64,000 bases of DNA from Meloidogyne chitwoodi (taxonomy: Eukaryota; Nematoda; Chromadorea; Rhabditida; Meloidogynidae). The DNA lies in the NCBI GenBank assembly GCA_015183035.1, contig JACZZP010000003.1, positions 806,001 to 870,000 of the forward strand, given 5' to 3'. A model generated the notes under the pieces. It saw only the letters and a list, made by a program, of their open reading frames with translations. It was not told the origin of the DNA and did not search any database. Within the stretch, counting starts at the first letter, position 1. Every line of letters begins with the position of its first letter. Position numbers and translations under genes: made by a program. Of this stretch, positions 9,160 to 37,804 are shown in pieces.

Positions 9160-10380
9160 ACTTTTCGTCAATGGACTTTCCGTCAACGGACCATTCGTCA
9201 ATACCTTTCGTCAACGGACTTTTCGATAACAGACTTTTCGTCAATGAATAAAATTTTGAAAAAAAGAGAAAAATACTAATTAAAAACGATAAAGGTCGTT
9301 TCAGAGTGGCCGGTTGTTTTTGCCATAATTTTTTTGCTTCTAAACCAATTTGAAAAGCTCTTTTATTAATCAAAATCTCTAGATAAGCGGATTATTTTTA
9401 CTAATTAGATAAATCCATTCAGATATCATCCCAGTAAAAGACAGCATGATAAAGTGGAAGATAGCGATTGTCGTGTTTTTCGAGCGTTTTTTAGAACCAA
9501 CTGATGTGATCTGTCCATTAGTGGGCAAACGTTAAGAATCCGGGTCCCGCAATTTTTTTATTAATTTTTTCGTGAAACTTGGTATCTGGGGGTTATCAAG
9601 GACGCTGATCACGAATCTGATATCAGATTTTGTCTAACACTTGATTTTATCTATGATTTTTCATCAAGTACTTGATTTTTGATCACAACATAATGGTGTC
9701 GGTCAAATTATATATCATTCGATTCCTCTCGAAAATCTGAGTCTATTGGTACCACTCCCATAATGCAGAAATGCCGATGAACCAAGATACATGTCCTTGA
9801 AAATCGAAAAAACGAAAGTTGGTGCAATCTGATTTTTGGAGTTGAAAATTAAATATATATATGATATCTAATTCGAAAGCATTTATCGACCTGAGTTGAA
9901 TGACACCAAAATTATCACGATTGGTCGATTTTACACAAAGTTATGACTAATCAAGAAAAATAAAAAGACACGAAAAATCAAGTACTTGATGAAAAATCAT
10001 AGATAAAATCAAGTGTTAGACAAAATCTGATATCAGATTCGTGATCAGCGCCCTTGATAACCCCCAGATACCAAGTTTCACGAAAAAATAAATAAAAAAA
10101 ATTTCGGGACCCGGATTCTTAACGTTTGCCCATTAGTGTAAAGAATCCACTTTTAGAGATCTTTCGATTGACTTCAAAACTTTTTGAAATGGTTTAAAAT
10201 AAAAAAGTTATGATAGCTATCTGAAACGACCTTTATCGTTTTTAATTAGTATTTTTCTCTTTTTTTCAAAATTTTATTCATTGACGAAAAGTCCGTTGAC
10301 GAAAAGTCTGTTATCGAAAAGTCCGTTGACGAAAGGTATTGACGAATGGTCCGTTGACGGAAAGTCCATTGACGAAAAGT
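9160..10380. mobile_element. Foldback element with about 145-bp TIRs made of 15-bp tandem motifs
   Basis: The left end (9160-9305) is the reverse complement of the right end (about 10225-10380). The outer part of each arm is a series of about seven degenerate 15-bp units close to TTGACGAAAAGTCCG; the inner part (AACGATAAAGGTCGTTTCAGA) is unique. There is no transposase ORF. I could not find a convincing target duplication. A second foldback element (9524-10130) is nested inside. Confidence 0.82.
9524..10130. mobile_element. Nested foldback element with CATTAGTG target duplication
   Basis: Inverted repeats of about 160 bp start GGCAAACGTTAAGAATCC on each side and include a shared stretch around CTGATATCAGAT. 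The element is flanked by perfect 8-bp direct repeats CATTAGTG (9516-9523 and 10131-10138), which fits hAT-type integration. It lies within the 9160-10380 element, so it inserted later. Confidence 0.85.
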
Positions 10381-10633
10381 TATAGAGCCCAAAAACGATG
10401 TTTTCGTCGATTCGCGGCGAATAACGACTTTTATTCGCGAACGACTATTTTAAAAATACAAAATGCCAGAACGATGTCAATAACGATGTTTTGTGCCAAA
10501 CGACTTGCGAAACGACGTTTTTGAGTCTTTTTTATTAACGTCTCTTAACTTCATCATACTCTCTACTTTTCTTTTTTCTGTTAACTAAATAAAATACGCA
10601 AATTGCTTGATTTAAAATAAAAAAATTTTTATT

Positions 10634-12653
10634 TTATTTTTTAGATGGATGAATTTCGAGAATCCAAATTTCGGACATAAATGGCATTTTCATTGGAGCA
10701 TTCTGGAAGAAAGTCCCAGCAGAAACAAGTAATTGAGTTACTCCATTATTTAATGAATAAAGTCCATAAAAATATGGCAAAAAGAAACGAGCAAGAGGCG
10801 CAACTACGAGAAACTGTCCGGCATGTGTATGCCCTAAAAATGTTGAGAATTTTATAAATTTATGAAAAAAATAAATACCAGACAAAATCAAATCAACAGG
10901 CCGCGACAAATTATCAGAAAAAGCCAGAATTTGTTTTGTAGCTGATGGATTGTGTTCAAGAACAATTGTTGTTTCGTTTAATGGGCAAGCTTTAATTGCA
11001 GTAACATCCATTACATGGTTGTGAATTCTAAATTTTAAACAAAATTAATTTTTTAATTTATTTAAAATGGCTAAAATATTGAAGGAGTAGCAAGATAAAA
11101 ATTTTAAAATTATATAAAGCTAATATATGAATATTAAAATCGACCATGTGATAAAGGTTCTACCGATATACTCCTATTTTCCATGGGAAATTAATAGGAT
11201 AATTATTTTTAAAATAAAAAATACCCGCTCTCCTCACTGTAAATATCATTTAATCCAACTAAGCAAAAGCCTTTTAAATTGACTGCTCTACAAAAATTTT
11301 TTTTTATAAATTTTAAATTAAAAAAAATACCGATTTTTTAAAATTTGAATTCCATAAGAATCAAATAATTCAAACCATTCATTAACATTTCCATAATAAT
11401 ATTCATGATTTCCAGTCACATAGAACGTTCCAAATTGCGATCGTAAATGCCTTAACGATTCTACACGTTCTTCAATTAACTCGCGAGGAGCGTCGATAAT
11501 ATCACCTAATTCATTTTTAAAAATTAAAAAATATATATTTAAAGAGAAAACCTATAAGAAAAACAGCATCCAAATCTTTAAGTCGATTAACACTTTCAAC
11601 TGCTTTAGCAATTTGTTCGGCGTAAACAGCTGCTCCCGCATGTAAATCTGTGAGAACAGCTACCTAAAAATTTTTTTAATTTATTAGAAAATTATTTTGA
11701 CAAAAAAAAAGATTAAGAATAACACCCTCTCCAAAAAATAAAACCTTTAAATTCTGCTTTGTAGAAGTCAAACGGGGAAGTCGAATTTGTTGATGGCGTA
11801 TAATTAATTTATCGCTAGAATACCAATGAGAAAATGAAAGTAAAGCAGTCAAAATTAAAGTTAATCCAACTTGAAATTTGCGATTTAAAGTAATAAATTT
11901 TATGCAAGGAAAAGAAAATAGTTTATCCAAAACTTTACGACCACAAATGAAAGCCTAAAAAACTATTTACTATAGTTTTTAAATTATTAAAGTACCGAAA
12001 GCATTCTCATTCCAATATTGTAAGCCATAAAATCATAGCAAAATAAACATAAATGAATCCAAATTCCATTACAAATTGCAGACAAATCGTAAATAAAAGA
12101 ATTTACTTCGAATGATTCTATCACATAAAATAAATAAGTTAAATGGGCCATTAAAAGGAGTAAAGCAAAGCCAATTAAACAGAAAATTCGAAGCCTCTAA
12201 AAATTTTATAAATTTATAAAAATTAATCCAAAATTTTAAATAAAAAGTAACAGAAACAGTTTATCCGCAAAAATCTTAAAAAAATAAAATAAACCTCATT
12301 TTTAGACCGTAAAATGCTTGTTTTTGCATCAAAAACAGAAAATAAATGTAAATATATTGGTAGATCAAGATGAAACATTGCCCATTCTATGGCTATAATT
12401 GAAGAAAAACGCCTAAGATTTCCTTGACGGTAACCAACTAATCTATTAGCCTGAAAAACTTTTATAAAAAATAAAATAAAAAACATACACAAAAATTCCC
12501 AACAAGTTTAATTTCACAAATTCCAATTATTAAAGTAGCATGAAAAATAAAAATCTTTTTTACAAGTAATTTAAATTTTGGTATAGTCATATGCCATTGT
12601 TTATCATATATAATCTTTGGTTTTGATCGATGAGATGAAGAAGACGAAGTCAT
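10634..12653 (-). CDS. Transmembrane metallophosphoesterase (TMPPE-like), left-arm copy
   Basis: Mirror copy of the gene at 18244-20263, with the same predicted 476-residue protein. Exons are the reflections of that copy (position = 30897 minus the other), starting at 12653 and ending at 10634. It has several N-terminal hydrophobic segments and then a C-terminal calcineurin-like phosphoesterase domain with LTDLHAG, GDIID, GNHEYY, LEHNPS and GHTHAG, the full metal-binding set. Both copies look intact, so this is a recent duplication or one kept uniform by gene conversion. The gene is transcribed away from the palindrome centre. The physiological substrate cannot be read from sequence. Confidence 0.88.
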
Positions 12654-12779
12654 TTAAGTAATTAATAATTCTAAACCTATTTTTTGTAAAAATAATAATT
12701 TTAAAAGAAGCAAAAATAGGCTTACCTAAATGAATTTAATGTTTTTAAAAAATAAAAAGTCTGGCATAATGATTTTGTT

Positions 12780-12870
12780 GCAACTTGGCGCTATGACAAT
12801 TGCACATTGAGACAATTGCCCAGTAAGACAATTGCTAGAGGACAACTGCACTGTGGACAATTGCACAGTA
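12780..12870. repeat. ACAATTGC-motif cluster upstream of the phosphoesterase gene
   Basis: About six short copies of GACAATTGC or close variants (GACAACTGC) occur within 90 bp just upstream of the left phosphoesterase gene. The same cluster occurs in the right arm at 18027-18117. ACAATTG is close to self-complementary, so the cluster can pair with itself. It may be a regulatory cluster or a small repeat remnant; the sequence does not decide. Confidence 0.55.
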
Positions 12871-13140
12871 AAGGTGGTTAAGTGGTTTAGTTTTGTGGAA
12901 AATTAAATAATACAGAGTGTCGTGCCACCAAAGTGAATGGGAAAAATAGATTTAAATTTTGGCATAATGTAAAAAGGAAAAGATTTAGCTAGTTTTGGCA
13001 CTTGCTTCAACGACTGAAAGTGCTGTGGTGTTTCCTTTAAAATTAGTATATTTAATAATTTGATAAATGTTTTCACTCATTTTTATTTTTTTGCTGATAT
13101 TGATCAATTATTTTTAGATTGTTATTCTTAACAGTGTAAT

Positions 13141-14510
13141 ATGATTAATCCGGTGGAGGATAAGTATGATGCATTAATGCCGTCTAAACATGACATGCTG
13201 TTAGCAGATATTGATCATGATGAATTGACAAAGGTATTCTATTTTTAAAAATTTAACTAAATTTTAGCAATATTTGTTAGTTGAGACGGCCTAAGTTCGT
13301 TTTCCGTCCTTTTGTTAAAAACTACCGGATTTTATCTCATTTTAAAGAGCTTGTCGAGCTGATTTTAACAACACTAAAATTTAAAATTAGTCCGCGGAAA
13401 CAAAAATGGACCAAATTTTACAGGTCCCTAAAAATTGAAAAACCATAGGGGGAAGTAAGCTCATTTTTGGTGTGAAAAATTCAAATATGAGTGATAGTCA
13501 TTCAAAAGAAGCTCTTCGAGACCTATCTAATGAGACCAAAATCGTGATTGAACGATTTTGAACAAAGTTATGAAAGATCGAAGTTGGAAACACGTCAAAC
13601 ATTGATCCATTGGGAGTGTTTTATTACTCCTTCATTTTTGCGCCCATGACTGGTTGGCTTTTGATACATACGTTACTCTATGGACTAAAATTACAACAAA
13701 ATAATTAATCAATTGAAAATATTTGTGTAGCCGCGTTAATTACATAGAGGAGCTTATCCCCCTATGGTTTTCCAATTTTCAGGGATCTGTAACTTGGTCC
13801 ATAGTTGTTTCTGCGGGCTAATTTTGTCGTTAAATCAGCTCGACAAGCTCTTTCAAATGACATATAATTCGGTAGTTTAAAAAAGGACGAAAAACGAACT
13901 TAGGCCGTTGAAACTTTTCTTCTAGTAATTATTATTGATTTAAAAAGTAATTGAGAATGGTCCAACTTTTGTTAATGCACCTCTAGATTTTCGGTTGCAT
14001 TTATCGTATTTCATTTAGTTTCTTATTATTTTTGTATTTTAGATTGGAAAACAGATGAAAATTGAATACTTGAGTAAGGGATCATTTTCTTCTCCATATT
14101 TTCCTGTTGTTGGCACGATATTTGGTCCAAAATATAGATTAATTGTCAATTTGGTATGCCGACGTTATAATAAGCCAAATGCACCAATACTCAACGTTCT
14201 ATTTCTGGTTGATTGTGGTGCGCCCATTTCCTACATAAGCTCTGAAACAATGCGTGCACTAATTTATGGATCCTCAGACTCTAATATCATACCTGATCTC
14301 CCTGATTCTCTGACTATTTCAATCCAGGTTTACTTTTATTTTTTGAATTAAAGTTGATAATTTGTTCTAGGATCCAGATTTTAAACACGAGTGCAAACGA
14401 TCAAAAGAATATATAGCAAGCTTGAATATTTTAGGGATGAATGAACTACGGACATTAAACTTAACAATAGAGGAAATGAATTGGCAGAATACTAGTTTTC
14501 GCCTTGCAAG
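13141..14510 (+). CDS. Retropepsin-like protein, copy a, spliced toward a P-glycoprotein fragment
   Basis: First of five related copies. Exons 13141-13233, 14043-14327 and 14371-14510 join in frame. Exon 2 has NVLFLVDCGAPISYIS, which matches the place of the catalytic D[TS]G[AS] loop of retropepsins, with Cys instead of Thr/Ser. Exon 3 has ASLNILGMNEL, matching the later hydrophobic-hydrophobic-Gly motif of that fold. Standalone copies end SFRLAKQ and stop; here the sequence is changed to a GTAATG splice donor that leads to 14548, where P-glycoprotein-linker sequence follows in frame. Intron 1 is enlarged by a foldback element. The first 56 bases lie inside the palindrome arm. Family function is unknown; the retropepsin assignment rests on motif order only. 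Confidence 0.6.
13287..13907. mobile_element. Foldback element in intron 1 of retropepsin copy a
   Basis: Inverted repeats of about 150 bp begin CGGCCTAAGTTCGTTTTCC at the left and are mirrored at the right. Flanks are TTGAGA (13281-13286) and TTGAAA (13908-13913). The paralogous intron at 33320-33345 gives the empty site (TTAGTTGAAACTTTTC), which proves insertion. The core includes GGGAGTGTTTTATTACT, also found in the element at 41861-42113, so the two are related. Confidence 0.88.
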
Positions 14511-14547
14511 GTAATGATATCGTATTATTTTTTAACTGAAAAAACAG

Positions 14548-16769
14548 AGTTGTAAATAAAATAAAAGTAGAAGAAAGTACACAAACAGATAGTCCGCAAT
14601 CAATATCTGATGAATCACAAAGTTTTTCTACAAAAGATGCTAAAATTTCTACTCCTTCTAAGACGACTTCACATAAATCAATTGCTTCTTGTGTAATAAA
14701 AAGGAGCCGAACGGACGTTGATCAAGTAAGTCATTCAATTTTTTGGTCACTATTTATTGTTTTGGTAATTTTTAATATTCTTGGATTTGCTATTTCGATT
14801 TTATTATTTTTTATCATATAAATTTATATTTTTTTAAAGGCAAATATGCTTGGTAGAAGTGGAGAACTTCTTACTCGTTTAATGGTTGTTATTTCCTCTA
14901 TTGTTACTTTAATTGGTGCAATTTCTATTGGTTTCATTAATGGATGGAAATTGGCATCAATTTTGCTTATAATTATTCGTTAGTGAACTTTTATTTATTT
15001 TTTAATGTATTAATATTTATCTTATTTTTAGCTCTAATAATTGCTAGCGGTTATTTTGAAATGCAACAACAAGTTTAAATTAAATAAATTTTTTTAATTT
15101 TTTTCAAGTTTGGCAAGAAAATGCGTGATACAAAGTTATTGGAAGATGCTGGAAAAGTCGCTTCTGAAGCAGTAGAAAATATTCGAACAGTTCAAGGATT
15201 AAATAAACAATCTGTATTTCATCAAAAATATTGTGAACAGTTAATTAGACCTTATCGGTTGTTTAAAGTATATTTTTAATTTTCTTCTTAATTTAGTTCT
15301 AATATTATGCAAGTGCACGTTTATGGAGCAGTTTTTGCATTTTCTCAGTCTTTAATCTTTTTTATGTATGCATTGGCATTTTGGATAGGGTCAATATTTG
15401 TTTTAGATGGAAGTATGACTCCAACCGCTGTTTTTCTGTATTTTTTATTTTAATATTTTTATTATTTTAATTAAAGTGTTTTCTTTGCCATTACTTTTTG
15501 TGGACAATCTGTTGGTCAAATTAGGTTTTTAATTCTTTTAATTATTTAAATTTTATTTTTTTCAGTTCTTTTATACCAGATGTGGTAAAGACACGTTTGG
15601 CTGCTTCTTTACTTTTTCATTTAATTGAATATCCGCCTCAAATTGATTCTTTATCAGAATTTGGAATTAGACAGGTTTTTAAATCTTTTGAGTTTTTAAC
15701 TATTCCTTATTGAAAAAGTAATTCCTAAATGAATACGGGGAAGATATTCTTTTTAATATTAGGCCTAGGCCTCTGTTCGCTTCTTCGAAATATTTTTAGT
15801 TTTTTTTTTAATTTTAAAACATTTTTTAGAATGTAAAAGGCTATATTCAATTTCGAAATGTTTATTTTTCTTATCCTTCTCGCTCTGGAATTCCAGTACT
15901 TCGTGGACTTTCATTGGATGTAAAAAATGGTCAAACAGTTGCTTTAGTTGGTTTTTCTGGTTGTGGAAAGAGTACAATAATGGCTTTACTTGAACGTTAT
16001 TATTCACCAACACGCGGTACAATTGTTAGTTTTATTAATTTATTTAAATTAAAAATATTTTTAAAAATTCAGCTTTTGGATGGTATTCCAATTGAAGACA
16101 TGAATATTCACATGTATTGTATCACAGGAACCAATTCTTTTTGATTGTTCAATACGTGATAATATTTTATATGGATTGTCTGATCAAAAGAAAATTTCAC
16201 ATGAAAAGATTGTCAATGCTTGTACTTCTGCTAATGCACATAATTTTATTATTGGATTGCCTGACGGTTTTTTTAATTAAATTTTTTAATAAGAAATTTT
16301 TTGAGGTTATGACACTCGTGTTGGCGAGAAAGGAATACAATTAAGTGGTGGACAAAAACAGAGAATAGCTATTGCTAGAGCTTTAATACGTGAACCTTCT
16401 GTGTTATTGTTAGATGAGGCAACTTCTGCATTAGACTCAGAGAATGAAAAGGTTTTTTTTAATTCCAACTAGCTATTTATTTAAATTTTTTAACAATTCC
16501 TTCTAATTCAAGGTTGTACAAAAGGCACTAGAAACTGCTCGTATAGGGCGTACTTGTCTTATAATTGCACATCAATTGTCAACTATACAAAATTGATCTT
16601 ATTGCTGTTATTGATGAAGGAAAAGTTGCAGAATTGGGTAAATTATTAAATAATATTTTTCAAAAAAAATTAATTTGATATTTTTGAAGGAACACATGAC
16701 GAATTATTGAATAAAGTTGGAGTTTACAGGACATTATGTGAAACTCAAATTTTTAATGACAATACATAA
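14548..16769 (+). pseudogene. P-glycoprotein (ABCB) C-terminal half, broken
   Basis: Encodes part of the linker ([11 protein letters not shown]), then the second transmembrane domain from mid-domain (GWKLASILLIIIPL, TRLAASLLFHLIE), then the second nucleotide-binding domain: Walker [10 protein letters not shown], signature LSGGQ, Walker [10 protein letters not shown]-loop IIAHQLST (Gln replaces the usual Arg). Exons: 14548-14725, 14840-14978, 15032-15072, 15109-15257, 15297-15437, 15477-15524, 15566-15674, 15830-16024, 16073-16266, 16306-16451, 16513-about 16638, 16690-16769. Two lesions break it: near 16112 about 20 bases are missing between Walker A and the Q-loop (VSQEPILFD resumes in another frame), and near 16593 the frame is lost after LSTIQ. 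Intact ABCB proteins are full-length drug and lipid exporters of about 1,250 residues; this piece lacks the first half entirely. Confidence 0.85.
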
Positions 16770-16964
16770 TTTAATTGTTTTAATTTTGTGAATTATTATT
16801 ATCATAAAATGTTTCAATTTTTATTCTCACTTATGTTTATTTTTTATTGACTATTTAATTGAAAACTTTATGCTAGTTAAAAAGCTTTGTTTTACAAAAA
16901 ACATTATATTTTCCATAAAAAAATTTGAAAAATATTTATTCATCAATTAAATTATAAAATATCA

Positions 16965-17756
16965 TTACTGCTTTGCAAGGCGAAAACTACGTTTCTTAAG
17001 GTTCATTCCTTCAATAGTCACTCCTAGTTGCAGTATAGCTGACATTCCCAATACGTTCGCCTCTTTGAAATGACTGTGTGAGAGATAGCATTCATTGGAA
17101 AAATTCGGATCCTTAAAACAAATCATAAAAATAATTCAAAAAATAATAAAAGTAAACCTGGATCACAACTTTCATATAATCAGGAACATCATCTGAACCA
17201 TTGAGTGTCTTCATCGTTTTTTCGTTAATGAAATTACAGTTGAATGCTACATTGACCAAAAACCAAACGTTGACGATTGGTGCATTTGGGTTATTGAACT
17301 CTTGACAGACTAAGCAAATCATGAGTCTATTATTTATACCATAAAATGTGCCAACGACCGGAAAAAACGGAGAAGAGAATGATCCCTTGCTTAGGTGTTC
17401 AATTTCCTCCATTTCGCCTATCTAAAATACAAAGATATCATATTTACGTAAAATGCAACAAAAAATAATAATTGCAGGATCAATGTCTAAACGAGTCTGA
17501 TACATGCGATCAAAAAGCGATAGGGTGAAGTAACAAAAATGGGTTTCATTTCAAATAACTTTTAAAGCTCTAAATTACTAATAGAATAAAGGCTTTCACT
17601 AGAAGTAAGATGCCAAAATTTGTTTAATTTTCATGGCAGTTAATTTCACTAAAAATATAATACCTGTTTCAACACCTTGTCATCAATGTCGGGAAGCATC
17701 ATGTCATGTTTAGACGGCATTAATGCATCATACTTATCCTCCACCGGATTAATCAT
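16965..17756 (-). CDS. Retropepsin-like protein, copy b (catalytic motif lost)
   Basis: Complete standalone copy of 167 residues. Exons on the minus strand: 17756-17664, 17421-17158, 17111-16965. It shares MINPVEDKYDALMPSKHDM with copy a, then GSFSSPFFPVVGT and NAPIVNVWFLVNVAFNCNFI, where the DTG position is replaced by NVA, and in exon 3 ANVLGMSAIL. It ends SFRLAKQ-stop. It is convergent with copy a across the P-glycoprotein fragment. The start lies within the palindrome arm, and its upstream region is identical to that of copy a. An intact reading frame with a lost active site suggests a non-catalytic role or early decay. Confidence 0.6.
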
Positions 17757-20298
17757 ATTACACTGTTAAGAATAACAATCTAAAAATAATTGATCAATAT
17801 CAGCAAAAAAATAAAAATGAGTGAAAACATTTATCAAATTATTAAATATACTAATTTTAAAGGAAACACCACAGCACTTTCAGTCGTTGAAGCAAGTGCC
17901 AAAACTAGCTAAATCTTTTCCTTTTTACATTATGCCAAAATTTAAATCTATTTTTCCCATTCACTTTGGTGGCACGACACTCTGTATTATTTAATTTTCC
18001 ACAAAACTAAACCACTTAACCACCTTTACTGTGCAATTGTCCACAGTGCAGTTGTCCTCTAGCAATTGTCTTACTGGGCAATTGTCTCAATGTGCAATTG
18101 TCATAGCGCCAAGTTGCAACAAAATCATTATGCCAGACTTTTTATTTTTTAAAAACATTAAATTCATTTAGGTAAGCCTATTTTTGCTTCTTTTAAAATT
18201 ATTATTTTTACAAAAAATAGGTTTAGAATTATTAATTACTTAAATGACTTCGTCTTCTTCATCTCATCGATCAAAACCAAAGATTATATATGATAAACAA
18301 TGGCATATGACTATACCAAAATTTAAATTACTTGTAAAAAAGATTTTTATTTTTCATGCTACTTTAATAATTGGAATTTGTGAAATTAAACTTGTTGGGA
18401 ATTTTTGTGTATGTTTTTTATTTTATTTTTTATAAAAGTTTTTCAGGCTAATAGATTAGTTGGTTACCGTCAAGGAAATCTTAGGCGTTTTTCTTCAATT
18501 ATAGCCATAGAATGGGCAATGTTTCATCTTGATCTACCAATATATTTACATTTATTTTCTGTTTTTGATGCAAAAACAAGCATTTTACGGTCTAAAAATG
18601 AGGTTTATTTTATTTTTTTAAGATTTTTGCGGATAAACTGTTTCTGTTACTTTTTATTTAAAATTTTGGATTAATTTTTATAAATTTATAAAATTTTTAG
18701 AGGCTTCGAATTTTCTGTTTAATTGGCTTTGCTTTACTCCTTTTAATGGCCCATTTAACTTATTTATTTTATGTGATAGAATCATTCGAAGTAAATTCTT
18801 TTATTTACGATTTGTCTGCAATTTGTAATGGAATTTGGATTCATTTATGTTTATTTTGCTATGATTTTATGGCTTACAATATTGGAATGAGAATGCTTTC
18901 GGTACTTTAATAATTTAAAAACTATAGTAAATAGTTTTTTAGGCTTTCATTTGTGGTCGTAAAGTTTTGGATAAACTATTTTCTTTTCCTTGCATAAAAT
19001 TTATTACTTTAAATCGCAAATTTCAAGTTGGATTAACTTTAATTTTGACTGCTTTACTTTCATTTTCTCATTGGTATTCTAGCGATAAATTAATTATACG
19101 CCATCAACAAATTCGACTTCCCCGTTTGACTTCTACAAAGCAGAATTTAAAGGTTTTATTTTTTGGAGAGGGTGTTATTCTTAATCTTTTTTTTTGTCAA
19201 AATAATTTTCTAATAAATTAAAAAAATTTTTAGGTAGCTGTTCTCACAGATTTACATGCGGGAGCAGCTGTTTACGCCGAACAAATTGCTAAAGCAGTTG
19301 AAAGTGTTAATCGACTTAAAGATTTGGATGCTGTTTTTCTTATAGGTTTTCTCTTTAAATATATATTTTTTAATTTTTAAAAATGAATTAGGTGATATTA
19401 TCGACGCTCCTCGCGAGTTAATTGAAGAACGTGTAGAATCGTTAAGGCATTTACGATCGCAATTTGGAACGTTCTATGTGACTGGAAATCATGAATATTA
19501 TTATGGAAATGTTAATGAATGGTTTGAATTATTTGATTCTTATGGAATTCAAATTTTAAAAAATCGGTATTTTTTTTAATTTAAAATTTATAAAAAAAAA
19601 TTTTTGTAGAGCAGTCAATTTAAAAGGCTTTTGCTTAGTTGGATTAAATGATATTTACAGTGAGGAGAGCGGGTATTTTTTATTTTAAAAATAATTATCC
19701 TATTAATTTCCCATGGAAAATAGGAGTATATCGGTAGAACCTTTATCACATGGTCGATTTTAATATTCATATATTAGCTTTATATAATTTTAAAATTTTT
19801 ATCTTGCTACTCCTTCAATATTTTAGCCATTTTAAATAAATTAAAAAATTAATTTTGTTTAAAATTTAGAATTCACAACCATGTAATGGATGTTACTGCA
19901 ATTAAAGCTTGCCCATTAAACGAAACAACAATTGTTCTTGAACACAATCCATCAGCTACAAAACAAATTCTGGCTTTTTCTGATAATTTGTCGCGGCCTG
20001 TTGATTTGATTTTGTCTGGTATTTATTTTTTTCATAAATTTATAAAATTCTCAACATTTTTAGGGCATACACATGCCGGACAGTTTCTCGTAGTTGCGCC
20101 TCTTGCTCGTTTCTTTTTGCCATATTTTTATGGACTTTATTCATTAAATAATGGAGTAACTCAATTACTTGTTTCTGCTGGGACTTTCTTCCAGAATGCT
20201 CCAATGAAAATGCCATTTATGTCCGAAATTTGGATTCTCGAAATTCATCCATCTAAAAAATAAAATAAAAATTTTTTTATTTTAAATCAAGCAATTTG
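17701..20298 (+). repeat. Right arm of the 2,598-bp inverted duplication
   Basis: Reverse complement of 10599-13196. The inner edge falls inside exon 1 of retropepsin copies a and b (after the shared ...CATGACATG). The outer edge falls about 35 bp past the phosphoesterase stop codon (...GCAATTTG). The 4.5-kb spacer between arms is not palindromic as a whole, although it contains diverged inverted copies a and b. Confidence 0.93.
18244..20263 (+). CDS. Transmembrane metallophosphoesterase (TMPPE-like), right-arm copy
   Basis: Nine exons: 18244-18408, 18447-18602, 18701-18901, 18943-19152, 19234-19345, 19392-19566, 19610-19672, 19870-20018, 20064-20263. They join exactly in frame to give 476 residues, close to vertebrate TMPPE (about 450). 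The N-terminal half has four or five hydrophobic membrane segments (for example IFCLIGFALLLLMAHLTYLF). The C-terminal half is a calcineurin-like phosphoesterase: D250 and H252 (LTDLHAG), G282-D283 (GDIID), G313-E316 (GNHE), then LEHNPS, and G411-H414 (GHTH). These are the usual metal ligands, so catalytic activity is likely. The start ATG opens a Ser-rich cytosolic tail. It is probably a membrane-anchored phosphohydrolase; the substrate is not inferable. Confidence 0.9.
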
Positions 20299-20703: not shown

Positions 20704-21543
20704 ATGTCATTATTAGCTGAACCAAGAAGAAAACAAAAAATTAGTATCGATCCACAAAATTTAAATTGGGCAAACGATGAAAAACGTTTTGGAAAGAAAT
20801 TAATGAAACAAATGGGTTGGAATGGTAAAGGATTGGGACCTGAAGGTGGTGGAATACAAAATTGTATTGAAACAAAACACAACAGTGATCAAAGAGGTTA
20901 GTGACTTTATAAAAGTGAAAAATGGAAGTACTTTGGTTTGGTGATTGAAAAAGAATTTATAGAATTAATAAGGTCCTAGAGAGCTGTTATAGTTTTTCGA
21001 CACTCCTGTGGAATTTTTAATTTTTTATAAAATCGAGCCAAAATTGTTACCAGAAAACTTGTTATTTTTTTATTGAGTTATATTTAATTTTAAAAATAAT
21101 TTTTTAGGACTTGGAGCCAATAATTAGAGATCGGCCAAATTCAAATATTTGTCAAATTTTTTCAAATATTTGATCAAATTTTTTTCAAATAGTTTGATTT
21201 GAATTTGATTTGACGTATTTTTTGTAAAATCAAATAATTTCAAATATCAAATATTATCAAATTGTTTGATTTGAATTTGATTTGATTTATTTTTGGGAAA
21301 TCAAATATTTGATCAAATATCAAATAATTTGAAATTATTTGATTTTCTGGATTATGTCTAATATTGGCATAATGTAAAAGGAAATATCGTGTGTCAGAGT
21401 GATAGAATAATTTTATATTCACTATGTCTCCTTCTTTTACAAAGTATTTCTTATTTTTATGCATTTCTTTCCGTCCTTAGAAAAAAAGCCAAAATGTCAC
21501 AAAGGGGTTGCTGGACAAAATGTCCGTAAGGGTAAGTGTTAAT

Positions 21544-22621: not shown

Positions 22622-24511
22622 ATGTCGGAAGAAAATATCAATCCTTCATCATTACCTCCATGTTGCGCCAAATTGTATAATGAAAAAGAAATGTTTAGAA
22701 AAGCTTTGCACCGAGAAAGGGAAAAGAGGCAATTAATTGAAAAGTCTTACGAGGAATTGCTATGCAATTATGAAAGATGGACTGAATTAAAGATTGATAA
22801 TAAACATGGATCTGAACAAAGGTTTTATTATTATTTTGGTTTAATTGGGGAAGTCTTTGGCTTTAGTGTATTTTTGATCCCTGACGGTCCCTTACATTAA
22901 TGCCTTTGGATTGTCAAAGATGCACCCTTTAAATTTTTTCAGTTCTGTACCTGCAGGTTCTGAATGGTTTAAACTAGAAAAAGCATATGAGAAGGTCAAA
23001 TCTTCTATCTTCACTCTGCCGCTAATTCAAGATTCTGAAAAACACAAAATTTGTTTAGCTATCGCTCTCTACAGCAATTTATTCTGTGGTTATACCTCCG
23101 GGTTTTCCTAAAAATATTGCAAATGTTATATGGACAACATCTAATACATATTTACGGACTAGCTATGAAGAAATGCCAGTTTTATTAGGTTTGTTTGTAT
23201 TTATTGTAATCTATGATTCACTCAACAAAATAAAGTTTGTTTAGAAAAGTCTATAATTTTATTAAAATATAGGTAAAACAATTTTAAATAATTTATTTTC
23301 CAACTTAATATTTAGAAGGAAAAGCTCCATATATCATAACAACTGAAACGCCAAAATCATTAATTAAAGCTCATTCAAAACTTGAGTCTTATTTATCTTC
23401 AAAACTTATTATTGAAGTTGAAAAGAAAGAAATTGTCGAAAAAATAGTTGAAATGATGAACATAAAAAATAAAAAGTTGAAGATGAAATTGATAGTTTGG
23501 AAAATTCTTCAAAACTTCGTGGAAAACTTATGATGATTGGGGAATTTTCTTTTCATTTGTTCGATTGGCAATTAAAAATATTGAGCATATGGAAAAAATT
23601 TTCACTTTAGATAAATCAAGGTCAAAATTTTTAGCCCTTGCCGGCCTTAGTGACTCGGCTACATTATTTCAAAAACCTAATAAATCTAAATGGAAAAAGC
23701 TACAAAAAAATTTGACACCATATAAACCACTACTTGGCCATTTTTGCACTTATTCTTACTTAAAGGAACCAAAAGCTTATATGGTTATCAAAAAATTTGT
23801 TGGTCTTAGAGCTGAATTTTACGGAATGTCACTTTTGACTATGGCAGCGCCTATTCTTAAAAATTTGTTACATCCATATAATGCATTATTGTCATTTTCT
23901 GAAACAACAAATGTTAATAATTTAGTAAAACTCTGTGCTTCTCTAATGTTATATTTTTCTGAAAATCCTGAGGTTTATTTTATACATACAAGTTTAATTT
24001 TTTAATTTAATTTTTAAAGAGTGCTATACATTTTTGGGGAGATACATACCCAGAATTGAAGAAAATGACTATGGATGATGCTAGAGCAGGAAAATTTGCT
24101 AGATTGTTCTCCGCCGATTATATGCCTTGGTTGTCATATAAGAAGGAATCAAAATTGGCTATAAAAATTGCAGGTATATTTTTGTTTTTTGCGAATATGT
24201 CCAAAAATTTTATCCTTAAATTTTATAATTATTTTTTATGGCATAAAATATACATTTTTTATAATTTTTTCCTAATTTAAGGGTTGAATGCAGGAGTTAA
24301 AGGAGATTTACATGACCCTAAACCTTCACTGGGAATATCAATTAGAGATGGAGATTATCTCAAGGCATTGAAAGCTGGTATTCAGTTGTCGAATGAAGAT
24401 GATGATAAGGATGAATTAACATCTGACCTTTGGAGAAAAATAAAGAAAGAAAGTACTGAACGCTTACTCAAAGAACTTTACAAATTAGAATTAATGAATC
24501 TTTTTGATTAA
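22622..24511 (+). pseudogene. Unrecognised tandem gene, copy 1 (frame-shifted)
   Basis: I do not recognise this family. Exons: 22622-22821, 22943-23188, 23316-23972, 24020-24173, 24282-24511. Exon 1 encodes a charged, coiled-coil-like segment (FRKALHREREKRQLIEKSYE) absent from copy 2. Conserved blocks shared with copy 2 include SSIFTLP-IQDS, IALYSNLFCGY, PKNIANVIWTTSN, GKAPYIITTETPKSLIKAHS, KPLLGHFCTYSYL and FARLFSADY-PWLSYKKESK. At about 23095 the frame is lost (GYTSGFS then stop, where copy 2 reads GYNPQGFPK). It is shifted again near 23480-23560 (stop codons between WKIL and NIEHMEK). So this copy is probably a pseudogene, although its last two exons remain open. No signal peptide or catalytic motif is visible. 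Confidence 0.65.
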
Positions 24512-24723
24512 ACGATATTTGTGTTGATAATTATTAAAATCTTAAAATAATTGAAGAAGAAAAGGATGAAAAAGATTAAAATAATATTTATTAAATTTAA
24601 ATAAAATAAATTTTAAAAATTAAATTTATTTTTTTTTGTTCAGTTTAATTTTCTCAAATATTTTATCTTTAAAATTTTTTTTATTATTTTCTTTTCATTT
24701 TTTAGATTTTTTTAATTCGACTA

Positions 24724-30738: not shown

Positions 30739-31378
30739 TAGTTAGAGGTGATTCTAAAGAATTTTTTGATTCGTTAAGAAAAAGACCAAAAAAGATTAGC
30801 AGCAAAAAAACAACTTATTTGAATTATTTTTTCACAAAATAGTATTTAAAATTATCTGGCAAAATCTTTATTTTTAAAAATTTAATTTTGGATAGGTGAA
30901 TTTCAGGCGTAGTTATAACAATAAAAATAAAGATTAAACCAGAATATGCCCATTTATTTTTTTCACAATAGTTTTATTTAAATATTAAACACTAGAACAA
31001 GATTTACAAAGATATTTTTTTCTCTTCACACATTTTAGGCTTCCTCGCTCACTGGTGGAATAATATTAATAATAAAAAATTTAGTGGTGAGAGGAAATTT
31101 TAAAATTTTAATTAGCTTTTGGTCGTATTTTTACTGTTTTATTCTTTCCTTTTTACCCATAAAAATGAAATTGTTAGTATTTTTATAAAATTTAATTTTT
31201 AATTATTTGAATTTTATTATTTTTAGTTTTTCGATTTTTAACATTTCTTTCTTATGTTTCGTTTTTATTGACTTTAATTGAAAACTTTATGCAAGTTAAA
31301 AAGCTTTCTTTTGTTTTATAAAAAAGTTATATTTTCCATTGAAAAATATTTATTCATCAATTAAATTATAAAATATCA
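30739..31378. other. EDC4 3' flank, partly duplicated elsewhere
   Basis: AT-rich DNA without a gene. The stretch 31093-31180 (AATTAGCTTTTGGTC onward) recurs with few changes at 37612-37700, and a weaker version lies at 32620-32700, so this flank has been copied into both rearranged regions downstream. 31260-31378 matches the 3' flank of retropepsin copy b. Confidence 0.65.
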
Positions 31379-32172
31379 TTACTGCTTTGCAAGGCGAAAA
31401 CTACGTTTCTTAAGGTTCATTCCTTCAATAGTCACTCCTAGTTGCAGTATAGCTCTCATTCCCAATACGTTCGCCTCTTTGAAATGGCTGTGTGAGAGAT
31501 AGCATTCATTGGAAAAATTCGGATCCTTAAAACAAATTATAAAAATAATTCAAATTTAAAAAAATAATAAAAGTAAACCTGAATTGCAACATACATACAA
31601 TGAGGGACATCATCTGAACCATTGAGTGCCTTCATCGTTTTTTCGTTAATGAAATTACAGTTGAATGCTACATTGACCAAAAACCAAACGTTGACGATTG
31701 GTGCATTTGGCTTATTGAACTTTTGACAGACTAAGCAAATCATGAGTCTATTATTTATACTAAAAAATGTGCCAACGACCGGAAAAAAACGGAGAAGAGA
31801 ATGATCCCTTGCTTAAATGTTCTTTTTGCTCCATATAGCCTATCTAAAATAAAAAGATCTCATACGTAAAATTCAACCAAAAATAATTATTACAGGATCA
31901 ATGTCTAAACGGATCTGATACATCAACCGAAAAGCTATAGGGTGAAGTAACAAAAATAGGTTTCATTTCAAATAGCTTCTAAAGCCCTAAATTACTAGCA
32001 GAATAAAGGCTTTCACTAGAAGTAAAGATTGCCAAAATTTGTTTAATTTTCATGGCAGTTAATTTCACTAAAAATATAATACCTGTTTCAACACCTCGTC
32101 ATCAATGTCGGGAAGCATGATGTCATGTTTAGACGGCATTAATGCATCATATTTATCCACCGAATTAATCAT
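31379..32172 (-). pseudogene. Retropepsin-like gene, copy c (1-bp frameshift)
   Basis: Closest to copy b. Exon 1 is 32172-32083, exon 2 lies about 31842-31579, and exon 3 ends at 31379 with AKQ-stop. In exon 2 the A-run near 31781-31787 has seven bases where copy b has six, shifting the frame just before the PVVGT block, so the protein would be truncated. Downstream sequence still shows FLVNVAFNCNFINEKTM, lacking the DTG motif, as in copy b. It is divergent from copy d across an 808-bp inserted element. Confidence 0.7.
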
Positions 32173-32277
32173 ATTATACTTTTAAGAATAACAATCTAAA
32201 AATAATTGATCAATATCAGCAAAAAAAATAAAAATGAGTGAAAACATTTATCAAATTATTAAATATACTAATTTTAA

Positions 32278-33085
32278 TAGTAAACACGAGGGATTTTTCG
32301 CGAAATTAGGATCAGAGAAATATAGTGATTAAAAACGATGACAACGACACTACTAAAAATCGACGGATTTTTTGCGAACTGTTTTCTTGGGAACAACCCG
32401 ACTAGGCACCGACGATTAGGCGCATGTAGTCTCTCGCTTCCTTTTTATCTCTAATTCTCTTCATTAGATATATTATTGCGCGCCTAGATGGCCCGCGCCT
32501 AGTTGGGCTGTACCCGTTTTCTTGCTGACATTAATGGCTCGCCCCGAATTCTTTCTACCTTTAATTCTTCCCACATTTATAAAATTTCGAATTCGTACCT
32601 CCCGAATTACGATTAAATTGTTTATAGTAAATTTTTTCTTTCCTTTTTTACCTCTAAAAATGAAAATTGTATGTATTTTGATAAAAAAAATTTTTTATAA
32701 ATATTTTTTATTTTTAACAATTTTAATACTTGAGATAATTATAAAAAAGAAAACCATAAAACATCAATTTAATTAAAAGTTCTTTATCGAGCATCATAGA
32801 CCATCACTAAAATTTAAAAATTGAGTAAAATCCTTAAAAATATAAACAAACTTTTTCTAGTACGTTTTTTGTAAAGAATTCTATATCCACATTCTCGGCA
32901 TCTAATAGGATCTTTTGGACGTATTTCATTTTCTCTATGACAATATTAAAATTATTGATAATTATTATTAAATTCAAAAATTAATTTTAACCTCCACAAA
33001 TATGTATATACAACAGCTGGAATTGTTTTTCCTCCAGTCATCTTATTATTAGCCTAATTTCCCGAAAAATCCCTCGTGTTTACTA
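32278..33085. mobile_element. TIR element carrying a captured rpb-12 fragment
   Basis: Inverted ends of about 32 bp begin TAGTAAACACGAGGGATTTT at the left, with the mirror image at the right (ending CCCTCGTGTTTACTA at 33085); one internal base differs. The element contains the 3' flank and most of the coding sequence of the rpb-12 gene found intact at 37805-38109, plus a smaller GC-rich inverted repeat near 32393-32513 (ACAACCCGACTAGGC with a GCGCCTAGTTGGG mirror). No transposase is present. This is the structure expected of a Pack-type element that acquired host gene sequence. Confidence 0.78.
32784..33041 (-). pseudogene. rpb-12 pseudogene inside the TIR element
   Basis: Matches the intact rpb-12 gene in exons 2 and 3 ([20 protein letters not shown] coded on the minus strand) and the intron between them. 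Exon 1 is cut to MTGGKTIPAVVY and carries 4 extra bases where the intact copy reads VVYICG, which breaks the frame. The N-terminal codons of the intact gene are missing. Confidence 0.85.
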
Positions 33086-33190
33086 CTATTATAATTAGTA
33101 TATTTAATAATTTGATAAATGTTTTCACTAATTTTTATTTTTGCTAATATTAATCAATTATCTTTAGATTGTTATTCTTAACAGTATAAT

Positions 33191-33873
33191 ATGATTAATC
33201 CGGTGGAGAAGTATGATGCATTAATGCCGTTTAAACATGACATGCTGTTATCAGACCTTGATCACGATGAATTAATCAAGGTATTCTATTTTTAAAAATT
33301 TGACCAAATTTTAACAATATTTATTAGTTGAAACTTTTCTTCTAGTAATTATTATTGATTTAAAAAGTATTTGAAAGTGGTCCAAGTTTAATTATTATTT
33401 TTTTATTTTAGTTTGGAGAGCACAATGGAATTAACTACTTAGGAAATGGATCATTTTGCTCTCCTTCATTCCCAGTTCTTGGAAATATTCATGGTCCTAA
33501 AGATAGATTCATTATCAATTTACTCTGTCAATCTTGTCATAAGCCAAATGCACCAATAATCAACGTTCTTTTTTTGCTAGACACAGGATCGCCCATATCT
33601 TTTCTGAGTATTGAAACGATTAGTACACTACTTTATGGGTCTCCAGATACTGGAGGTGCTATCCCTGATTCTCTGAAAGTTAAAATTCAGGTTTACTTTT
33701 ATTTTTCAATTAAACTTGATAATTTGTTTTTAGGATCCTGATTTACAGTTAGAATGTAAGCCGTCTAAAGAATTTTTTTTTGGAATAAACGTCCTCGGGA
33801 TGAACCAACTAAGAGCATTGGAAGTAACAATCGAAGAAATGAACTGGACGACAAATACTTTTTGTCTTGATAG
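33191..33873 (+). CDS. Retropepsin-like protein, copy d (DTGS motif intact), leads into P-glycoprotein
   Basis: The copy with the best active site. Exons 33191-33280, 33412-33690, 33734-33873. Exon 2 reads NVLFLLDTGSPISFLS, a canonical aspartic-protease loop with hydrophobic residues on both sides. Exon 3 has GINVLGMNQLRAL, equivalent to the second conserved Gly motif. Retropepsins are dimers of about 100-residue subunits with one DTG each, and the domain size here fits that. As in copy a, the end is a GTAATG splice donor rather than a stop, and the next exon (33911) continues in frame with P-glycoprotein-linker-like sequence. The surrounding DNA shows no integrase or reverse transcriptase, so there is no sign of a retroelement. 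Confidence 0.62.
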
Positions 33874-33910
33874 GTAATGATATCGTATTATTTTTTAACT
33901 GAAAAAACAG

Positions 33911-36051
33911 AGTTGGACATAAAAGCAAAATTGAATCAAGAACACAATCTGGTAGTCAAAAACAATCGATATCTGATGAATCACAAAATTTTTCTTCAAA
34001 AGATGCTAAAACTTCTCCTTCTAAGACGACTTCACATAAATCAATTGCTTATGGAGGAATAAAAAGAAGCCGAACTGACGTTGATCAATTAAGTCATTCA
34101 ATAACAATACATTCTTTAAATGCTGAACAACAAGAATTAGAGAGGTTTTTTAAATTAAAATTAATTTTTTTTGTTTTAAAATTCAAAAAATATTTTTTTA
34201 GATATGAAAGAGCATTAGAAGACGGCCGTAAAACTGGTTTACTTAAATATCTTTATATGGCACTTGCAGGTTTTTATTTAAATAATTTTTATAATTTTTT
34301 AAAAAATATTTTTAGTTGGTATAAATAATATAATTATGCATTTTTCTTACGCTGTTGCTTTTTGGTATGCATCTAGGCTTGTATTGTGGTATTCAGATTT
34401 TGATAGGGGTGCTGTGTTTACTTTTTTTGTTTGTTTATTTTTATTAATTAATTTTTTAAATTAAATTTAAAAACCCTGTTTCCGACTTTTTGGTTATTTT
34501 AAACACCAAACTTCTCTTAGCTTTTAAAATTTTATTTTTGAAAATAAATTTATTTTTTAGTTTGCCCTAATGAGTGGTTCAACAGCTTTAGGTGGTGCTC
34601 TTCCTCAGTTGGTAAATATAACATCTGCAAAAGGAGCCGCAAGACATGTTTTTCGAATTATTAATCGAGTTCGTTTTTTATATTTTTTGACTTTAAAAAT
34701 TTTAATAAAATTAATAAATATCAGACCATAATTTTTAAAAATTTAGAAACCACATATTGATCCATATAGCAATGAAGGTCATATATTATGGGAAGTTAAA
34801 GGTGCAATTCGCTTTCAAGATGTGAATTTTACTTATCCATTACGAAAGGATGTTAAGGTTTTTTATTTTTGTATTTTTCACCATTTTTTTTTTAATTTTT
34901 AGGTTTTAAAAGGTGTAACATTCTCATTAGAACCAGGAAAGAAATTAGCTTTAGTAGGAGCTAGTGGATGTGGAAAATCAACAATTGTTAATTTATTGCT
35001 TCGTTTTTATGATCCAATTAAAGGAACAGTGCTTTTAGATGACCATGATTTACGTAAATTAAATGTTAGATGGTTAAGAGATCAAATTGGTGTTGTTAGC
35101 CAGGAACCAATTCTTTTTGATGGAACTTTAGAGGTTTTTAATTAAATTTTTAATTAAATTTAAAAAAGAAAATATATTCAAAGGAAAATATAATGCTAGG
35201 TAATGAAAATGCTACTAAAGAACAATTATTAGAATGCTGTCGTTTGGCTAATGCTTTTGAGTTTATTCAAAAGTTATCAGATGGGTTAAGAACTAGAGTT
35301 GGAGAGCGTGGTGCTCAGTTAAGTGGCGGTCAAAGACAGGTAAAAAAATAAAAAATAATTTTATAACATTTTTTTAAAGAGAATAGCAATTGCTCGTGCA
35401 TTAATAAAAAATCCAAAAGTTTTACTTTTGGATGAGGCAACTTCAGCTTTAGACACAGAATCGGAAGCTCTTGTTCAAAGAGCATTAAATAAGGTTAATT
35501 TTTAAAAATTATTTGTTAACAACAATTTAACACTTAGGCACAAGAAGGACGTACAACAATAATTGTCGCTCATCGTCTATCAACTATTCGAGACGTTGAT
35601 CAAATTTTGGTTTTTAAAGAAGGCCGTATAGTTGAAGTTGGGACTCACACAAAACTTTATAATGAACATGGAATTTTTTACGGGATGGTTAACCAACAAC
35701 AAATTCATAAAAGGGAAGCTGAGAGGGCACTAGGCATTGTAGATGGTAATTTTTGTGTTTAAACTTGACGAAAATATTAATTGAAAAATATATTTTGTTT
35801 ATACAGAAGAAAATGGTTCAACTAAGAATGAAGATGAACAAACTGACAAAATTGAAACTGTTGCTCAAACTGATAAACAACCATTGCTATTAACCTCTGG
35901 CGGATCTCTTCGTTCCTTAAAAGGTGCTTCATCTGTTCCTTCTCGAACGACCTCACATAAATCAATTTCTTCTCCAGGGCCATTGAAAGGATTAAAAAGA
36001 AGAACATCGGAGACTTCAGTTGGTTTTTTGGACGTGGAAAGATTACAATAA
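33911..36051 (+). CDS. P-glycoprotein (ABCB) N-terminal half, rearranged
   Basis: Continues from retropepsin copy d. Exons: 33911-34144, 34202-34269, 34316-34428, 34561-34668, 34747-34857, 34903-35133, 35184-35339, 35380-35493, 35538-35745, 35807-36051, all in frame. It begins with linker-like sequence ([11 protein letters not shown]), switches within the exon to first-membrane-domain sequence ([20 protein letters not shown]), and then gives the last helices of that domain and a complete first nucleotide-binding domain: [53 protein letters not shown]. The usual inter-domain linker follows ([11 protein letters not shown]), then a stop within former Walker A sequence of the second half. So it is open-reading but lacks most of membrane domain 1 and all of the second half; transport is unlikely. 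It may be a transcribed relic or a half-protein. Confidence 0.8.
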
Positions 36052-36165
36052 TGGCTTTACTTGAACGTTATTATTATTTAAATATTTTTAATTGTATCTC
36101 AGGAACCAATTCTTGCTCAAACATGATAAACTCAAATTTAAATGACAATAATACATAATTTATTT
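36023..36165 (+). pseudogene. Remnant of the second P-glycoprotein nucleotide-binding domain
   Basis: Three scraps in correct order match the C-terminal half at 15950-16770: Walker A region (GGAAAGATTACAATAATGGC, Ser changed to Ile), the Q-loop (TCTCAGGAACCAATTCTTG), and the last exon end (ACTCAAATTTAAATGACAAT). All sequence between them is deleted. This shows the locus once had a complete P-glycoprotein. Confidence 0.8.
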
Positions 36166-36339
36166 TAATTTATAAATTTTACTATTACTATTATTTCAAC
36201 TTTTAGCAAGTTTATTTTTTATGTTTATCTTTTTTATCGCTTTATGACTATTTAATTGAAAATCTTATAAAGACGTTATATTTTCTATTTAAAAAATTTG
36301 AAAAATTCTTCATTTATCAATTAAATTATAAAATATCAT

Positions 36340-37081
36340 TACTGCTTTACAAGGCGAAAACTTTTCGTCTTCCAGTTCATCCCTTCGATACTCACTTTCA
36401 TGTGCAGCATATCATCTATCCCCAATATGTTCGCCTCTTTGAAATGGCTATGTGAGAGTCGGCATTGAGTGGAAAAATTCGGATCCTAAAAACAAATTAT
36501 AAAAAAATAATAACAACAAAAATTGAAAAATAATAAAAGTAAACCTGAATTGCAACATCCATACAAGTATGGACATCATCTGAGCCAGCGAGTGCGTTCA
36601 TCGTTTTTTCGTTAACGAAAGTACAGCCGAATCCTAAACTGACCATAAACAAAACGTTGACGATCGGTGCATTTGGCTTATCAAAATTACGACAAACCAG
36701 GCTAACCATAGGTCTATTGTTTACACCTGTGATTTTGCCATAGACTGGAAAAAATGGAGGAGAAAATGATCCTTCACTCAAGTATTCAATTCCCATCATT
36801 ACTCCTACCTATAATACAAAAATTAACATATATTTATGTAAAACAAAACTTGATGGTTGCATTAACAAAAATAGAGTTCAACTATTATTTAAAGCTCATT
36901 AGGAATAATAAAGGTTTTACAGGTAAAGAAGAGTGCTAAAATTTCATTTAATTTTCATAACAGCTTTTTTAATTATAAAAAGTAAAATTACAGCTCGCAA
37001 CTCCTTGTCATCAATGTCGGGAAGCATCATGTCATGTTTTTTCGGCGGTAATGCCAAGTACTTTTCCAACGAATTAGTCAT
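36340..37081 (-). CDS. Retropepsin-like protein, copy e (catalytic motif lost)
   Basis: Standalone copy with an open frame. Exons on the minus strand: 37081-36992, 36808-36545, 36485-36340. It encodes MTNSLEKYLALPPKKHDMM, later GSFSPPFFPVYGK, NAPIVNVLFMVSLGFGCTF (SLG where DTG would be), EANILGIDDML and a SFRLVKQ-stop end. It is more diverged from b and c than they are from each other. It is convergent with copy d, repeating the a/b arrangement of the first locus. Confidence 0.58.
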
Positions 37082-37804
37082 GTTACGCTACAAATAATAA
37101 ATATTAGTAAAATTGTTAAAATTAGTAAAAACAATAGAAATGTTTACTAACAAAAACGTGGTGCGACCGATGGGGACCGACACTTGGGGACGACATTTTA
37201 GGACCAACATTTGAGTAAAAAATGAAAAAACCGTCTTAAGTTTAGAAATTTCACCCGGAATCGGGCACAGAACTATTTATCCGACAGTAGCACTATTCGT
37301 TTTTTTCTAAATTTTTTAATCAATATCAGTCCGCAAATGTCGGTTCCAAGTGTCGTGTCGCCCAAAAAACGGACAAATTGCCAAAAAAATCAACTTTATT
37401 CAGTTTGATGGCATTATGCCTTAATCCACCGGATTAATCATATTACTGTTAAGAATAACAATCTAAAAATAATTGATCAATATCAGCAAAAAAAATGAAA
37501 ATTGGTTAAAACATTTATCAATATACTAATTCTAATAGTAAACACGATACAGATTTGGAACGATTAAATCGTTTATTAAATACAAATAAATTTAAGGATC
37601 CATTTTCTTTTAATAAATTTTAAAATTTTAATTAGCTTTTGGTCAATATTTTTACTGTTTTATTCTTTCCTTTTTACCTATAAAAATGAAATTGTTAGTA
37701 TTTTGATAAAAAATTCTTTTTATAAATATTTTAATTTTTAACAATTTTAAACATGAGATAATCATAAAAAAGAAAACCAAAACATCAATTTAATTAAAAG
37801 TTCT
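37082..37804. other. Junction zone: retropepsin stub, TIR stub and copied EDC4 pieces
   Basis: 37150-37380 is a GC-richer insert with imperfect inverted ends (GACCGACACTTGG near the left, CCAAGTGTCG near the right). 37417-37535 matches the 5' region of the retropepsin-like genes, truncated after MINPVD (sixth, partial copy, minus strand). 37537-37547 is the first 11 bases of the TIR of the 32278 element. 37552-37600 copies an EDC4 coding segment, and 37612-37700 copies DNA downstream of EDC4. The rest is the 3' flank of rpb-12. Confidence 0.7.

Follow-up and report, generated by a model that had tools for sequence, protein, structure and literature searches.

We describe an exact inverted repeat in a 64,000-nucleotide stretch of the Meloidogyne chitwoodi genome (contig C23:806001-870000, hereafter the window), each arm of which carries one complete copy of a TMPPE-like phosphoesterase gene, here called P. 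The arms enclose a spacer containing the bodies of R1 and R2, two inverted members of a gene family that we call R, on either side of a fragment of an ATP-binding cassette (ABC) transporter gene. Our preferred interpretation, which we hold to be probable, is a recent inverted segmental duplication of the single gene P, guided on its inner side by homology between the inverted R genes. It is favored by the exactness of the arms, by an inner edge that lies in register within two paralogs, by a second locus of the same layout that lacks P (locus B), and by a PINX1-like gene that stands beside the right arm only. Searches covered the assembly of 47,477,280 bases in 30 contigs; coordinates prefixed with C refer to these contigs, and all others to the window.

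The two arms are reverse complements of each other at 2599 of 2599 positions, with 0 mismatches and 0 indels, and paired positions sum to 30897 throughout, around a spacer of 4502 bp. A sequence-only reading of the window had described such a palindrome of 2.6 kb, bearing two identical phosphoesterase genes with introns as identical as exons, and our analysis bore this out; the count of single-nucleotide differences between the arms, which that reading had proposed as a check, is 0 in the assembly sequence. A repeat scan of the window also recovered the pair, with arms lengthened to 2657 nt at 99%. Of each arm, 1431 bp are coding sequence of P, with 183 fourfold sites; introns account for 589 bp, the stretch beyond the stop codon for 35 bp, the intergenic interval that separates P from R for 487 bp, and R exon 1 for the remaining 57 bp. 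Identity is equally complete in coding and non-coding DNA. The inverted repeat is real in the assembly sequence, and an exact match of this length is far beyond chance. The absence of differences over 2599 sites limits divergence to at most 0.00115 per site (95% upper bound). As the C. elegans mutation rate is 2-3e-9 per site and generation, the last common sequence of the arms would, at that rate, date back at most about two to three hundred thousand generations.

The two copies of P lie on opposite strands of one locus, minus on the left and plus on the right. P carries a calcineurin-like phosphoesterase domain above the cut-off (PF00149, E 9.3e-13, 49.5 bits vs 21.5), and all 16 matches of the P protein in the assembly at E ≤ 0.001 fall within the two arms. 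Searching with the DNA of the left arm gave 51 matches, and the 49 that are neither arm all fell outside P, in the final 474 bases of the 2642-base query, where they represent the R end of the arm and a dispersed repeat; the part of the arm that bears P occurs just twice. Among public proteins, 600 matches to P passed E 0.001, of which 120 were listed. Those listed include four Meloidogyne homologs that are 85-90% identical, one of them over 49% of P only; the near-full-length proteins of M. hapla, M. graminicola, and M. enterolobii are 85-87% identical, and the next homologs in this set come from Heterodera (58%) and Globodera (56%). With its own upstream region and an intact frame, the left copy of P may be expressed. 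A transposable element with long terminal inverted repeats would also place inverted arms around internal genes, and a transposon-like element lies 218 bp away. However, no dispersed copies of a whole unit were found in the assembly, the P part being present only twice, and a conserved gene order continues out of one arm; we regard this origin as exceedingly unlikely. The nearby element has nested terminal inverted repeats of 85 nt at 100% and 128 nt at 98%.

The inner edge of the arms is informative about how they arose. Each arm ends, on its spacer side, at codon 19 in exon 1 of an R gene, R1 on the plus strand and R2 on the minus strand, and R family homology inside the arm covers these first 19 codons and ~100 bp upstream. 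Beyond the edge, R1 and R2 are still homologous and in register at about 70% (44/63 positions immediately past it, 271/440 over exons, 154/213 over introns), and the inner edge is therefore the start of their difference and not a random breakpoint. R1 and R2 are old, distinct paralogs in inverted orientation. Just past the edge, R1 groups with the family member R4 (54/63) and R2 with R3 (79/80), and R3 and R4 themselves show the same step, being alike at 143/153 positions before the equivalent point and at 44/63 after it. The sequence-only reading had placed the arm edges within this exon and just past the P stop, as base-level breakpoints. Both locations stand, but the inner one marks where two paralogs diverge rather than a junction with unrelated sequence.

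These observations bear on two other origins. That two alleles were joined head to head, one of three explanations offered by the sequence-only reading, is a misfit: R1 and R2 are distinct genes, the outer flanks are unlike past ~20 bp, and the PINX1-like gene is single and adjoins the right arm only. The other two fared better, recent duplication being the best supported and conversion between the arms remaining its rival. Alternatively, the spacer could have been inverted through staggered breaks. Such an event duplicates the DNA lying between the staggered cuts, in inverted orientation at either end, and so yields inverted arms around an internal segment. That much of the locus would be accounted for, but both inner edges would lie in register within two paralogs only by coincidence, and we judge such an inversion very unlikely.

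We instead favor ectopic repair through R homology, because the inner edge lies in register within two paralogs. At the outset, R1 and R2 were older inverted paralogs flanking the ABC fragment. Their 5′ ends, over ~160 bp, were probably alike beforehand, to judge from the step between R3 and R4 described above. R1 would have been broken near its 5′ end and repaired with the 5′ end of R2 as template; synthesis would have run outward through the R2-P intergenic stretch and the whole of P, halting past its stop codon, and the new end would then have been attached to the left flank, perhaps through 10 bp of AT-rich microhomology. R1 would thereby hold the upstream region and first 19 codons of R2.

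The outer edge lies 35 bp beyond the P stop, and the gene order past it suggests the direction of copying. The copied stretch terminates between P and the PINX1-like gene that follows the right copy of P; no second PINX1-like piece was found in the assembly, where the gene is single copy and lies beside the right arm only. Among the 120 listed homologs of P, seven combine phosphoesterase and G-patch domains, from four genera: Heterodera schachtii, Aphelenchoides besseyi (three), Anisakis simplex, Caenorhabditis bovis, and C. auriculariae. In 7/7 the phosphoesterase comes ahead of the G-patch, and whether they are true fusions or joined gene models, they put PINX1 after P in distant nematodes. 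We also take T23G7.2 and T23G7.3 to be adjacent in C. elegans, though we found no paper on this. Because the single-copy PINX1-like gene follows only the right P and this order recurs in the seven nematode proteins, the right arm probably retains the ancestral order and served as the original, or donor, with the left arm as the copy. Table 1 gives the coordinates of the features.

Table 1. Features of the inverted repeat and its surroundings, in window coordinates
Feature	Position	Strand	Description
Element with terminal inverted repeats, left flank	9160..10380		Ends 218 bp before the outer edge; a neighbor, not part of the repeat
Left arm	10599..13197	+	2599 bp, exact reverse complement of 17700-20298, without adjoining PINX1-like gene; probably the newer copy
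Left P, TMPPE-like phosphoesterase	10634..12653	-	Nine exons; identical to right P
R1 gene model	13141..14725	+	First 57 coding bases inside the arm; intron 1 with dispersed insert resembling a miniature inverted-repeat transposable element (MITE)
Spacer	13198..17699		4502 bp: R1 body, ABC transporter fragment, R2 body
ABC transporter gene, copy of 3′ half	14733..16802	+	93.9% identical over 1966 bp to C23:788753-790689 (minus strand)
R2 gene model	16968..17756	-	First 57 coding bases inside the arm
Right arm	17700..20298	-	P, then the single PINX1-like gene; probably the original
Right P	18244..20263	+	Gene model of nine exons, 476 codons, GT..AG introns, intact frame
PINX1-like G-patch gene, first exon	20704..20898	+	440 bp past the right P stop, same strand; PF01585, E 3.5e-9; single match in the assembly
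R3	31189..32287	-	90.3% identical to the R2 region
Locus B	33089..37142	+	R4 (+), ABC 5′ part (34103-36022), R5 (-); layout like that of the spacer

Several points weigh against a recent copy made in this direction. Gene conversion of an older duplicate would leave nearly the same sequence. Substitutions in R exon 1 were considered as a guide to direction, and the sites split, with the arm resembling R3 at 153/158 and R4 at 149/156, while R5 and a further member, R6, do not settle the matter; gene order was therefore used instead. Yet 113 of the 120 listed P homologs, all four from Meloidogyne included, are uninformative on gene order. The microhomology at the outer edge is also weak: the flanks have in common TATTTTATTT, a 10-bp AT-rich sequence 2-3 bases past the edge that is one base out of step, and it could also be a remnant of older homology. 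Of 2000 random pairs of 25-mers from the window, 28 (~1.4%) shared at least 10 bases, and 85 of 5000 reached the local alignment score. A hairpin that might have stopped copying was also sought at the outer edge and rejected, as the scan was positive there and at 97 of 5000 random positions (stem 13), and a particular stem that we had named was not recovered.

The chief rival is accordingly gene conversion: P and R would have been duplicated in inverted orientation at an earlier time, and the arms made identical recently, perhaps repeatedly, by tracts that stop in R exon 1 where homology drops. R1 and R2 already form an inverted pair of old date, and the outer flanks are alike at 14/16 positions directly past the edge, possibly a leftover of older homology. 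The model is realistic given what is described for Caenorhabditis, where PMC1803023 reports inverted gene pairs whose members match at up to 100% inside a species but far less across species, kept so over the long term, one of them identical over its first 297 nt but diverged at the 3′ ends, and where PMC3966223 reports conversion between paralogs in either orientation. However, nothing recognizable as homology was found in the outer flanks past ~20 bp, nor is there a second PINX1 piece, and conversion would therefore have had to reach nearly the exact end of the duplicated stretch. On this evidence we think conversion somewhat unlikely, and continue to prefer a recent copy.

The region around the locus contains further inverted pairs. 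A second perfect one, C23:776914-777503 vs 787928-788517, spans 590 bp without a mismatch; its copies are ~10.4 kb apart, and it ends ~28 kb from the left arm. The pair presumably derives from an M16-peptidase gene. The copy at 787928 seems to be the native one, because a reading frame continues past its edge, and a third copy, 84% identical, is found at C2:693611-694207. In a survey of inverted pairs of at least 300 bp at ≥95% identity, covering pairs that start outside the satellite at window positions 42000-45000, we found four in the 124-kb block around the locus, the P pair included, and none in two 40-kb blocks on C12 and C1. The region is either often rearranged or locally misassembled.

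An assembly error could take the form of a left arm brought in by a read path that was chimeric or wrongly joined, or of polishing that wiped out real differences between the arms. The arms show zero differences in the assembly, and the zero-difference pair nearby, together with the count of four inverted pairs in 124 kb, keeps an artefact in consideration; PMC7953838 warns of false palindromes from wrong scaffolding. Nevertheless, an error of this kind would have to create two false joins at a distance of 2.6 kb, one of which falls in register within a paralog, and a simple allele join is excluded, as the outer flanks, R1, and R2 all differ. We consider an artefact unlikely.

Other repeats were observed in and around these blocks. 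An inverted pair at C23:887770-888144 / 889966-890340 (375 bp at 98.1%) perhaps represents the ends of a transposable element. Direct duplications were present at C12:1017321-1018254 / 1021143-1022084, in a control block (942 bp at 98.9%), and at window positions 22933-25772, where 22933-23855 and 24806-25772 are ~80% identical over ~1 kb. A tandem repeat array occupies 42776-44169.

R is best treated as an orphan family. DNA matches of the R2 region number 10, all on contig C23, and among 16 candidate public homologs of the R4 model none reached E ≤ 0.001. The sequence-only reading had called R retropepsin-like, a label we find poorly founded because of this result and because a segment of R1 scored below both cut-offs against aspartyl protease profiles (E 0.12 and 0.13; 13.4 bits vs 28.2 and 24.3). 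R1 (13141-14740) and R4 (33191-34110) are alike at 466/630 exon positions and 199/215 intron positions (92.6%), the reverse of the usual pattern, with synonymous divergence (dS) near 1.0. That value is at odds with introns this similar; mosaic origin and diversifying selection are candidate explanations. For R2 and R3, the ratio of nonsynonymous to synonymous divergence (dN/dS) was discarded as meaningless since the R3 model is out of frame. The MITE-like foldback insert in R1 intron 1 (~13279-13915) has relatives at roughly 76-83% on many contigs. At 14548-14900 and 34000-34200, the last exons of R1 and R4 head toward ABC sequence and end resembling the ABC linker, which makes chimeric R-ABC genes possible.

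A single ABC transporter gene, present as a longer copy at C23:788753-793289 on the minus strand, has had its 3′ half copied to the spacer and its 5′ part to locus B, each beside R genes; the 5′ part is 95.0% identical to the longer copy over 1931 bp. At 5-6% diverged, these ABC copies predate the last identity of the arms. Locus B has the order R(+)-ABC-R(-) and, by the search described above, no P; the layout can therefore exist without it. Rather doubtfully, we suggest that the 5′ ends of R genes act as recurrent homology anchors in this part of the chromosome, such that repair from one R gene copies the upstream DNA of another in inverted orientation, through which R genes acquire upstream regions and first exons that are new to them. 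Older products of this process would be the similarity of R3 and R4 at their 5′ ends and the ABC halves scattered next to R genes, and the P palindrome would be the most recent.

Within one duplication, the locus combines a donor (probably the copy next to PINX1) and a target that can both be named as probable with an inner edge in register and zero divergence. Two models for inverted gene pairs in nematodes, a recent copy and an old copy maintained by conversion, could be distinguished here through relatives or isolates. If the duplication is real, a conserved phosphoesterase gene has been doubled, and an orphan gene has had its upstream region and first codons exchanged. The case is neat but not unprecedented, as other worms have comparable gene pairs.

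The closest known match is indeed the inverted gene pairs of Caenorhabditis, among them F44E5.4/F44E5.5 and the hsp-16 locus. As presented in PMC1803023, these are opposite-strand paralogs whose arms are up to 100% identical, non-coding sequence included, with one case identical at the 5′ end and then diverged. Their spacers are 126 or 414 bp, whereas that of M. chitwoodi is 4502 bp and holds other genes; the pair here is known from one species, and its donor side can be inferred from gene order. The parallel drawn by the sequence-only reading with palindromes of asexual Meloidogyne is loose. These share with our locus an inverted duplicate on one Meloidogyne scaffold, and PMC5465968 reports one in M. 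incognita and three in M. arenaria, with none found in M. javanica, M. hapla, or M. floridensis. However, those palindromes, like those of Adineta vaga (PMC7953838), are collinear multi-gene blocks with synonymous divergence (Ks) in the range of other duplicated regions, whereas here one whole gene and 57 coding bases of another are duplicated with zero divergence. A palindrome is also described on scaffold S1 of an M. hapla assembly; in contrast to ours it consists of more than 300 copies of a 16-mer telomere repeat per side rather than of genes, and was confirmed by long reads (PMC12643312). Primate Y-chromosome palindromes resemble the present one in their gene-bearing, nearly identical arms, which PMC7953838 describes as kept alike by conversion on the strength of population and species data, whereas ours comes from one assembly. 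Finally, P itself resembles TMPPE-like membrane phosphoesterases in its PF00149 domain, and its close relatives among the matches listed are nematode proteins, some of them named transmembrane protein with metallophosphoesterase domain; the difference here is that there are two identical copies.

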